Shown: in pieces, positions 57,240 to 60,682 of the stretch
Position numbering within the stretch: position 1 is the stretch's first letter
How the letters are laid out: the number at the start of each line of letters is the position of its first letter
Assembly: GCF_021028995.1 (NCBI RefSeq)
Contig: NZ_JAJJZG010000011.1
Span: forward strand, 1 to 64,000
DNA: 64,000 nt
DNA from: Halobacterium sp. KA-4
Lineage (GTDB): Archaea > Halobacteriota > Halobacteria > Halobacteriales > Halobacteriaceae
Direction: 5' to 3'
Notes under the pieces: model-generated
What the model was told of the DNA's origin: nothing
Database searches by the model: none
Seen by the model: the letters and a program-made list of their open reading frames with translations, nothing else
Position numbers and translations under genes: made by a program

Positions 57240-59429
57240 TTAAGCCGTTCGTGTCGAGGCGGAGCCGCCGCGGCGGCCGCCGAGTGTCACGACGGCGAGG
57301 ATGGCGAGCCCGACGAGGTACATGATGGCGATGGGCAACGCGATGAGCAGCATCGTGTAGAGGCTGTCGGGGGTGACGAGCGCGCTGAACGCGAACGCGC
57401 TGATGACCGGCACGCGCCAGCGCCGCCGCATCGTCTGGTAGGAGACGATGCCGCCGGCGTGAAACAGCACCATCGTCACCGGGATGTCGACGAGGATGCC
57501 GATACCCACGGTCAGCAGGAACACCATCCACGCGAACGTGCTGACGGTGAAACTGATTACCATGCCGGCGTCGAGCGCGTCGTAGACGAGGAACGAGATG
57601 ACCTCGGGCGCGACGAACGAGTACCCGAGGTAGCTCCCGAGCGCGAGGCCGCCGACAAGCCCGCCGCCCCAGACGGCGATGACGCGGCGGTCGCCGGTCA
57701 CCCAGCCACGGTCGGAGAGCGCGGGCCAGATGTAGTAGATGATGACGGGAAGCGTGCCAATGGCGGCCAACACAACGGAAATCTTCACCTGGAAGACGAG
57801 CGCCTCGACGGGGTGGAGCGTGATGGGCCACTCGCCGCCGGTCGCCAGCGGCCGGACGTCCGCCGGGATGCGCGCGATGAAGTTGTCCCGGACCTCCCGG
57901 AACCCGCCGTAGTAGAGCCACCCGAAGATGCCGACCATCAGCGCCATGAACGTCCCGACGATGCGGAACGCCCGCGAGCGCAGGCTGGAGAACACGAACC
58001 GGATGTCGTAGTAGTAGCCGCCGATGTCGTCCTCGGTGGTCTCCTCCTCGGTGAACGCGTCCATCATCCCCGCGGCCGTGCTCTGGACCGTGTTCGACTC
58101 TTCGTCCGCGGCGGCCTGCTCTGCTTCGACGGCTTCCTCGTCGAGGTCGGCGTGGACCTCGTCGAAGCGGTTGAGGACCGCCTGCGCCTTCTCGTCGTCG
58201 TCGGCTTCGAGCGCGCGGTTGGCCGTCGCGAGCGCCTCGTCCTCGGTCAGCGACGCGAACGCTTCCGGGGGCGCGGCCCGCACACCCGCGGCGTGGAGTT
58301 CGTTGAGGTCGATGTCACCGGGGTTCTCGGGCTGCCCGAGCCGGGACTGTGCGACCTGCTGGGCGGCGCGGTCGATGGCGACGTACGTGTAGTATAGCGC
58401 CGCCGCGGTGAGCGCGACGACCGCGAACGCTCCGCCGAGCACGAGATAGCCGGTCGCCGGGTCGACGCCGAGCACGTCACTGACGGTCGGGACGCGGACC
58501 GACGACCCGATGAATTCGAGGCCGGCGTTGAACGCTTCGATGCCGCCGTACTGGCCGGTCGCGTAACCCGCGGCGAACCCGAGCACGCCGACGCCGAGCA
58601 CGCGGTTCCAGCGCTCGCGGAACACGCCGCGGACGTCGACGTGCTCGCGGCCGCGCTTCATCGTCACCACGACCTTCGCGCAGTACAGCGAGAGGCCGTA
58701 CAGCAGGATGAGCGGGGACGCCCACAGAATCTGGGTGAACGGGTCCGGCGGCGAGAAGAACGCGCCGAACGCGAAGATGCCGACGACCGCGTACTTCCAC
58801 TTATCGCGGAACGTCTCGTAGGGGATGATACCGGAGTACGAGAACGCCGACACGGCCAGCGGGAGTTGGGCCGCGAGCGCGAACGAGAGCGCGAGGAAGA
58901 GGATGAACTCGGTCCACTTCACGATGGAGTACTTCGGCGCGAGCCCCGCGCCCACGGCGTTGCTCGCGAGGAATTCGAACATCAGCGGGAAGAACAGGAA
59001 GTACGCGTACGCGACGCCGGCGGACGCCAGTCCCGCACAGACCAGCGCGACGAGCGCGACGTTGAGCCGGGAGACGGAGACGTCGGGGATGATTTCGCGC
59101 TCCACGAGCGGCTCGCGGGCGTGGTAGAGGAGGACGGGGATGGCGAGCGCGGCCCCCGTGAACAGGCCGATTTTCACCTGCATCAGGATGACGTCGAACG
59201 GCGTTTGCGCGATGACGTTCGCGGTCTCCACGAGGAGGTCTTCCTCGAGTTTCGGCCAGACGTACAGCCGCATCGCCATGATGCCGCCGATTAGCCCGAC
59301 GACGAACGCGATGAAGACGTGCTGGAGCTTCGACTGGGCGGTCCGGAGCATCACACCGAGCGTCTGCCGGCCGGACTCGATGGTGCGGGCCGTACTGGGG
59401 TCTATCGGGCCCGAGCCGGAGCTACTCAT
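57240..59429 (-). CDS. tatC2: Fused double TatC protein (TatCt)
   Basis: Twin-arginine translocase core subunit made of two TatC domains. 729 residues: the first TatC spans about 25-270 (EIIPDVSVSRLNVALVAL, PFTQILWASPLILLYGLSLY). Two extra hydrophobic segments and an acidic linker (about 280-460) follow, then a second TatC (GIFGWLYYGGFREVRDNF to LYTMLLIALPIAIMYLVGL). The haloarchaeal two-in-one TatC is known and pairs with TatCo. Divergent from tatC1, with a shared promoter of about 90 bp. Haloarchaea export many proteins by Tat, as several lipoproteins here show. Confidence 0.94.
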   Translation of the reverse strand: MSSSGSGPIDPSTARTIESGRQTLGVMLRTAQSKLQHVFIAFVVGLIGGIMAMRLYVWPKLEEDLLVETANVIAQTPFDVILMQVKIGLFTGAALAIPVLLYHAREPLVEREIIPDVSVSRLNVALVALVCAGLASAGVAYAYFLFFPLMFEFLASNAVGAGLAPKYSIVKWTEFILFLALSFALAAQLPLAVSAFSYSGIIPYETFRDKWKYAVVGIFAFGAFFSPPDPFTQILWASPLILLYGLSLYCAKVVVTMKRGREHVDVRGVFRERWNRVLGVGVLGFAAGYATGQYGGIEAFNAGLEFIGSSVRVPTVSDVLGVDPATGYLVLGGAFAVVALTAAALYYTYVAIDRAAQQVAQSRLGQPENPGDIDLNELHAAGVRAAPPEAFASLTEDEALATANRALEADDDEKAQAVLNRFDEVHADLDEEAVEAEQAAADEESNTVQSTAAGMMDAFTEEETTEDDIGGYYYDIRFVFSSLRSRAFRIVGTFMALMVGIFGWLYYGGFREVRDNFIARIPADVRPLATGGEWPITLHPVEALVFQVKISVVLAAIGTLPVIIYYIWPALSDRGWVTGDRRVIAVWGGGLVGGLALGSYLGYSFVAPEVISFLVYDALDAGMVISFTVSTFAWMVFLLTVGIGILVDIPVTMVLFHAGGIVSYQTMRRRWRVPVISAFAFSALVTPDSLYTMLLIALPIAIMYLVGLAILAVVTLGGRRGGSASTRTA

Positions 59430-59521: not shown

Positions 59522-60682
59522 ATGGCCGAGGAACCGGACGGCGGGCGCGACCGCAACCACGACTGGGAGGGGCTCGCGCCAGCCGTCCGTCCCGTCGACA
59601 GCGCGGACAGCGGGCACAGCGAGTGGGAGGACCTCTCGCCCGCGGTTCGCCGCGTCGACGCCGCTGACGGCTACGCAGGCCCGCGAGTCGCCCGCGACGA
59701 CGAGTGGCGCGACCTCACGCCAGCCGTCGAGCGCGTCGAGCCGGACGACGGCGACGAGTGGGACTGGGACGACGACGCCATCGCGGCCGCGGGCGACAAG
59801 AGCGCCGACCCCGCGTCGGGCGGCGAACCCGAACTGCTCGCCGACGACGACCACCAGGCCGACGAACCCGACGAGGACGCCTCGCTCGACCCGCGCGAGA
59901 ACTCCGTCGTCGACGCCGAGGAGAACCCGGCACCCCCGGACGACGGCATCGGTCTGGACGCGCCCGAGTCCGACGTCGAAGAGCCGCTGGCCGTCCACGT
60001 CGAGGAGATGGTCAAGCGGCTCGCCATCGTCATCGCCATCGCCGCGCTCGTCAGCGTCGCCGTCTTCCCTCTCACGGAGGGCCTCATCACCACCATCTGG
60101 AACTACGTCCTCCCCGGCGGCGAAGCCGTCGACCCCCGCGTCTACCAGCCCCTCGAGCTCGTCATCACGCAAGTGAAAGTCGCGAGCCTCGCGGGCCTGG
60201 TCATCGCGCTCCCCGTGTTCGTCTACCAGTCGTACGCGTTCATGCGCCCCGGCCTCTACCGCCACGAGCGCCGCTACTACCTCGCCGCCGTCCCGACGAG
60301 CCTCGTGCTCGCCGTGCTCGGCGTCCTCTTCGCGTACCTCCTCGTGCTCCCGTACACGATGGACTACTTCCAGGGCTACACCGAGAACACCGCGGACGTC
60401 GCGTTCGCCCTCGGCTCCACGTTCAACCTCATTCTCATGGTGATGGGCTACCTGGCGGTAGTGTTCCAGATCCCGCTGTTCATAATGCTCGCCATCATGC
60501 TCGGCGTCACCACCCGCCAGTGGCTCGAAGACCGCCGCCTGCTGTTCTGGGCCGCGTTCGCCGGCATCTCGTTCACCTTTGGCGCCATTGACCCGACGGG
60601 TGTGGTCCCCATCATCGTCGCGCTCACCATGATTGCGCTGTTCGAGGGAACGCTCGCGCTGCTGCGGTGGACGGGCAACTAA
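59522..60682 (+). CDS. tatC1: TatC protein with long acidic N-terminal extension (TatCo)
   Basis: Single-domain TatC receptor for RR signal peptides, 386 residues from ATG 59522. The six-helix core starts near residue 165 (VEEMVKRLAIVIAIAALV) with RPGLYRHERRYY and FTFGAIDPTG as family landmarks. The first 160 residues are acidic and disordered-looking. They carry three copies of a 13-residue motif, (D/E)W-x-x-L-x-P-A-V-x-x-V-(D/E), at 14-26, 34-46 and 61-73. A CCTATAAC box upstream suits the promoter. The gene is followed by dispersed repeat copy 2. Confidence 0.93.
   Translation: MAEEPDGGRDRNHDWEGLAPAVRPVDSADSGHSEWEDLSPAVRRVDAADGYAGPRVARDDEWRDLTPAVERVEPDDGDEWDWDDDAIAAAGDKSADPASGGEPELLADDDHQADEPDEDASLDPRENSVVDAEENPAPPDDGIGLDAPESDVEEPLAVHVEEMVKRLAIVIAIAALVSVAVFPLTEGLITTIWNYVLPGGEAVDPRVYQPLELVITQVKVASLAGLVIALPVFVYQSYAFMRPGLYRHERRYYLAAVPTSLVLAVLGVLFAYLLVLPYTMDYFQGYTENTADVAFALGSTFNLILMVMGYLAVVFQIPLFIMLAIMLGVTTRQWLEDRRLLFWAAFAGISFTFGAIDPTGVVPIIVALTMIALFEGTLALLRWTGN

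Follow-up and report, generated by a model that had tools for sequence, protein, structure and literature searches.

A short motif with the consensus [WF]-x-[DG]-L-[TSEQA]-[PS]-A-[VI]-[RE]-x-[VI]-[DE] is present in the acidic tails of three protein families of the Halobacteriaceae, namely the TatC protein TatCo, the PilB3-type pilus ATPases and the PrsW-family intramembrane metalloproteases. Since the unrelated PilB3 and PrsW tails carry the motif of TatCo, we consider at roughly even odds (probability about 0.5) that several membrane machines in this family share a motif that docks their cytosolic tails to one common partner. Docking of this kind would probably involve a partner of several machines rather than export alone.

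The motif copies in the TatCo tail

The TatCo gene (TatC1-type, 386 aa) lies at 59522..60682 on the forward strand of the window, i.e., the whole 64,000-nucleotide stretch of Halobacterium sp. KA-4 DNA that was analyzed, and forms a divergent pair with tatCt (57240..59429, reverse strand), which encodes a fused double TatC (TatC2-type) of 729 aa. Membership of TatCo in the TatC family follows from its match to PF00902 (E 1.1e-38, 133.5 bits versus a cut-off of 25.1), which places the membrane domain at residues 159-358 (59996..60595, forward strand), while the NCBIfam tatC model gave 112.3 bits, under its equivalog cut-off of 132.7. The N-terminal extension at residues 1-152 (59522..59977, forward strand) is acidic and predicted to be disordered, with pLDDT values of 35-45, i.e., below 50 almost throughout residues 1-153 (AlphaFold2, 26-sequence alignment). 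The first-pass annotation had described such an extension with three copies of W-x-x-L-x-P-A-V; the copies are indeed there, starting at residues 14, 34 and 61, and the acidic, disordered character is borne out as a prediction. From the sequence and the genus alignment, copy 1 (DWEGLAPAVRPVD) spans residues 14-26 (59561..59599) and copy 3, the last (EWRDLTPAVERVE), residues 61-73 (59702..59740), with copy 2 (EWEDLSPAVRRVD), whose presence and position differ between species, at residues 34-46 (59621..59659), all on the forward strand. The separations of 20 and 27 residues given earlier hold as start-to-start distances but not as gaps, which are 7 and 14 residues.

Searched as a DNA pattern across all 3.34 Mb of the genome, W..L.[PS]A[VI] had 7 matches and its reversed control also 7; however, three of the seven matches are the TatCo copies, and since these cluster within 180 bp they are not a product of chance. 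Adding ..[VI] to the pattern left 5 genome matches against 0 in the control, with 3 of the 5 in the TatCo tail. A stricter pattern (W..L.[PS]AV.R[VI][DE]) searched over 392 haloarchaeal genomes returned 18 matches in 13 genomes, comprising 16 in TatCo tails of Halobacteriaceae, one in a bactofilin-like tail from another family and one out of frame. The three copies in KA-4 share 27-30 of 39 DNA positions (69-77%) and use mixed synonymous codons, and a fresh tandem duplication as their origin was therefore rejected.

Two further candidate explanations of the motif were discarded. The first, mimicry of a twin-arginine signal (a pseudo-substrate for TatC), fails because the positions concerned read RP, RR, ER, SR, RS, RT or EQ, followed mostly by V-D/E, so that RR is not conserved, and no hydrophobic stretch comes after. 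The second, homotypic pairing with motifs in TatCt or TatA, was rejected since neither of these two sequences has the motif.

AlphaFold2 predicted short, low-confidence helices in the TatCo tail at residues 40-46 (PAVRRVD, in copy 2) and 61-64, so that in copy 2 a nascent two-turn helix is predicted to begin at the PAV. The model does not indicate stable packing of the tail on the TatC domain, as confidence is low throughout the tail.

Conservation of the tail across haloarchaea

TatCo is found in 389 of the 392 genomes of the class, and we compared its tail among 11 members of Halobacterium, 10 other Halobacteriaceae loci and 58 TatCo proteins of other families. The tails are mostly acidic, very variable in length and often contain unrelated lineage-specific repeats. 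Halobacterium (g1) TatCo proteins have one to four copies of the motif in all species, at spacings of 15-76 residues, and neither copy number nor spacing, for which an alignment had been proposed as a check, is conserved even inside this genus. Copy 1 is the most stable element, kept at a constant distance from the N-terminus in all 11 complete Halobacterium TatCo proteins as well as in a partial one (G377); W15, L/V18, A21, V22 and V/I/A25 occur in 11/11 species, and L18 itself in ten. The last copy retains W, L and A in 10/11 species, and middle copies are present in some species and missing in others. These anchors (W15, A21 and V22 without exception) are conserved above the surrounding tail, with a modest contrast in pooled dN/dS (motif codons 0.29, spacers 0.47, TatC core 0.09); choosing columns where both sequences carry the motif biases the first of these values downwards.

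Outside Halobacterium, strong copies in TatCo were limited to two other genera of the family, g4 with three copies and g3 with PAV-type copies that lack the W, and the motif is absent from the TatCo tails of g2, g5 and g6. Other haloarchaeal TatCo tails are mostly acidic too but without the motif: only 4 of the 58 TatCo proteins from other families had one weak match each (9-11 bits), and none had strong copies, so the motif was rejected as a general haloarchaeal TatCo module. The absence that had been named as an argument against the original proposal thus applies outside Halobacteriaceae and to three genera inside it, whereas Halobacterium, g3 and g4 keep the motif.

Two other elements of the tail, which the first-pass annotation did not describe, are conserved at most positions in 10-11 of 11 Halobacterium species: GDEWDW at residues 77-82 (59750..59767, forward strand) and PELLADDDHQADEP at residues 103-116 (59828..59869, forward strand), where P103, L105, L106, H111 and Q112 are found in all 11. 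The latter equals motif copy 1 in its conservation within the genus. Repeats of other kinds were seen in other haloarchaeal TatCo tails (four of the DLRDRWGVPDEP type, two of AEAAAAAAVSRLDAEES, and arrays of DETADTGEEAEDTDEAEET and of DEDAADSDV) at loci L006 (Natrinema gelatinilyticum), L097 (f9g75), L046/L047 (f1g2) and L049 (f4g42).

PilB3, PrsW and background matches

A search of other proteins, likewise put forward as a check on the original proposal, found the motif in the tails of PilB3-type ATPases and PrsW. Both were found by following matches, and were then confirmed on orthologues or genera not used for discovery. The PilB3-type ATPases (PF00437 plus PF23989 in intact relatives) have one to three copies in their N-terminal tails in all 11 Halobacterium genomes that keep this region, and some have an extra copy in an acidic C-tail. 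When scored with a position-specific matrix built from TatCo only, the 11 PilB3 N-tails reached 11.5-22.8 bits (each with shuffle p ≤ 7e-4), and none of 50 control tails, from TatCo of other families, reached 10 bits. In G035 the PilB tail reads DWEGLAPAVRERD, in which the ten residues DWEGLAPAVR are letter-identical to KA-4 TatCo copy 1. PilB3 thus resembles TatCo in having the motif in an acidic N-terminal tail in Halobacterium, but it is an unrelated protein, the rest of its tail (VGDYSWVDYLEEYG) is unlike that of TatCo, and its motif is limited to g1; the PilB N-tails of g2, g4, g5, g6 and g87 have none.

In KA-4 itself only an N-terminal fragment of the PilB3 gene survives (G000:C33:228476-228742; L045 1008-1253), reading DYDWQQLTPAVREYD and abutting tRNA-Arg(cct) (L045 1270-1343) and tatA (L045 1384-1713, reverse strand). 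The close relative G319 has one in-frame stop in this gene, which is intact in others.

PrsW (PF13367) was spotted by pattern in two Halobacterium members and then tested across Halobacteriaceae, where 8 of 23 C-tails have the motif, with scores of 11.4-27.0 bits (p 3e-4), against at most 0.8 bits in the remaining 15. The positives include genera outside the discovery set (g3, g4 and g6), in which a single copy stands at the very C-terminal end (e.g., FDGLTPAVERVD and FEDLTPAIEYVGDDE), and the W is often replaced by F or D in PrsW copies; PrsW of g2, g5 and most g1, KA-4 included, lacks the motif. Like TatCo, PrsW has the motif in a tail, but as one copy and at the C-terminus. The g4 PrsW C-tail is also predicted to be disordered (pLDDT 31-35), with a helix at residues 335-341 over PAVERVD, the same place as in TatCo (AlphaFold2).

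These frequencies are well separated from the background, estimated from sampled genome stretches and pattern searches, which amounts to ~4 matches per 410,000 residues versus 11/11 for PilB and 8/23 for PrsW. Only TatCo reached 15 bits in 480 kb of the KA-4 genome, and three 400-kb samples of relatives (G039, G023 and G236) had four other matches of at least 15 bits. Two of the four are LTDAVERV-type motifs in flexible acidic linkers of G039 E2 acyltransferase subunits of 2-oxoacid dehydrogenases (L354 17379-18758, reverse strand; L338 17965-19509, forward strand), which shows that the motif is not confined to membrane proteins; the two from G023 lie in long ORFs with no acidic-tail context. 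In the DNA-pattern search of the genus, most extra matches were in-fold or out of frame (e.g., a NUDIX protein with WAxLPPAVVVV, a permease and antisense frames), and searches of plasmids and the PDB with the motif region gave nothing relevant.

A few isolated copies were also recorded. The best-scoring one outside TatCo is DWDSLTPAVRRVED, in the acidic C-terminal tail of a bactofilin-like protein (L117, G305, family f2). This is the only strict in-frame match outside Halobacteriaceae and falls within the chance rate for 392 genomes; it was not called as real because the reversed-pattern control yields more such matches. Single DLEPAVERV-type copies, which may be due to chance, occur in a loop of an antiporter-like subunit (PF00361) and in an acidic repeat protein (L207 in G319 and L204 in G067), and in a Halobacteriales MAG (L008 7222-8331, reverse strand) a putative frame upstream of an MBL-fold-like hydrolase has TEDWDGITPVVRSVD near its possible start.

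Docking and competing explanations

If the tails do dock, the motif would form a two-turn amphipathic helix with W/F, L, A-V and V on one face, and the acidic cytosolic tails (the TatCo N-terminus, the PilB3 N-terminus with some C-tails, and the PrsW C-terminus) may attach through it to one putative cytosolic or membrane-peripheral partner, with added copies expected to raise avidity. We infer from the recurrence that such a partner exists, that all carriers share it and that binding matters. Several observations sit uneasily with this: the carriers differ in their distributions, as g6 has the motif in PrsW but not in TatCo, PilB has it only in g1, and KA-4 combines a motif-less PrsW with a mere fragment of PilB3; the motif is short and made of residues common in haloarchaeal proteins; and the dN/dS contrast is modest, in columns preselected for the motif in both sequences. 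The E2 linker matches would, in addition, make any partner not specific to membranes. A narrower version, in which a dedicated Halobacteriaceae adaptor reads the W/F-L-PAV-V helix and links Tat, the pilus motor and the protease to a common membrane site or control, is doubtful; if true, it would mean that an archaeon has a docking code for its membrane machines.

Among the alternatives, it is unlikely that the motif acts as a membrane-surface or self-sticking helix, whereby amphipathic stickers in an acidic spacer would cluster their carriers without a dedicated receptor. The hydrophobic moment of most copies is high for their length (above at least 95% of shuffles), the copies are multiple and variably spaced, and the three main carriers are all membrane or membrane-associated proteins, yet amphipathicity would not require so strict a consensus at the level of letters (a P opening the helix, A-V, R/E), similar matches occur in the linkers of the soluble E2 enzymes, and the flanks of the motif are acidic, as is the membrane. 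An absence of function, in which the repeat arose in one lineage and is drifting in a disordered tail that tolerates change, is similarly unlikely. Unrelated repeats in other TatCo tails, freely varying copy number and spacing, and a dN/dS much higher in the tail than in the TatC core would all fit such drift, but it accounts poorly for a copy 1 whose W, L/V, A, V and V/I/A are kept in every species amid spacers that are hard to align, and for the recurrence of the motif in two unrelated proteins.

Somewhat less likely again is a role specific to Tat, as first suggested, where the motifs would bind TatA, TatCt or a Tat chaperone for translocase assembly or substrate collection. TatCo has the motif in multiple copies, with copy 1 in every Halobacterium species, and the TatC gene cluster of H. 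salinarum is reported as essential in the passage of PMC3235422 that cites Thomas and Bolhuis (2006). However, the motif is not Tat-specific because PilB3 and PrsW tails also carry it; TatCt and TatA are without it, and most haloarchaeal TatCo proteins lack it although they run Tat with TatA and TatCt. From the initial docking idea, therefore, the conserved helix-forming motif in a disordered acidic tail is supported, whilst the Tat-specific role is not. Finally, a tag for regulated proteolysis, i.e., a recognition site of an AAA+ protease such as LonB that would set the amount of each machine, is improbable: in TatCo, PilB3 and PrsW the motif does lie on or close to a free disordered end, and haloarchaeal LonB is membrane-anchored and controls how abundant membrane and envelope enzymes are (PMC9263693), but LonB is described across haloarchaea while the motif is limited to one family, the same review yielded no degron consensus, and a degron needs no conservation of up to four copies.

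Docking of several machines to a shared partner shifts the question from what TatC binds to what TatCo, PilB3 and PrsW bind in common. Little seems to be described about the placement or regulation of archaeal membrane machines through disordered tails, and a motif common to Tat, a pilus ATPase and a protease offers a concrete bait for the partner, in an organism amenable to genetics. Our literature searches found no archaeal motif with this consensus and no role or motif for the TatCo N-terminal tail, which does not prove that such a description is absent.

In its gene arrangement, KA-4 matches H. salinarum, with TatC1 plus a fused TatC2 in both, and TatCo is like H. salinarum TatC1 and haloarchaeal TatCo in having a single TatC domain and a gene beside the fused TatC2/TatCt (PMC13186574). 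The motif itself is most like the helix-forming short linear motifs known as molecular recognition features, with its ~12 residues, amphipathic helix, and aromatic and aliphatic anchors, and it shares with folding-on-binding motifs the several copies, the variable spacing and the unrelated carriers, being here a candidate for this class by sequence and prediction.
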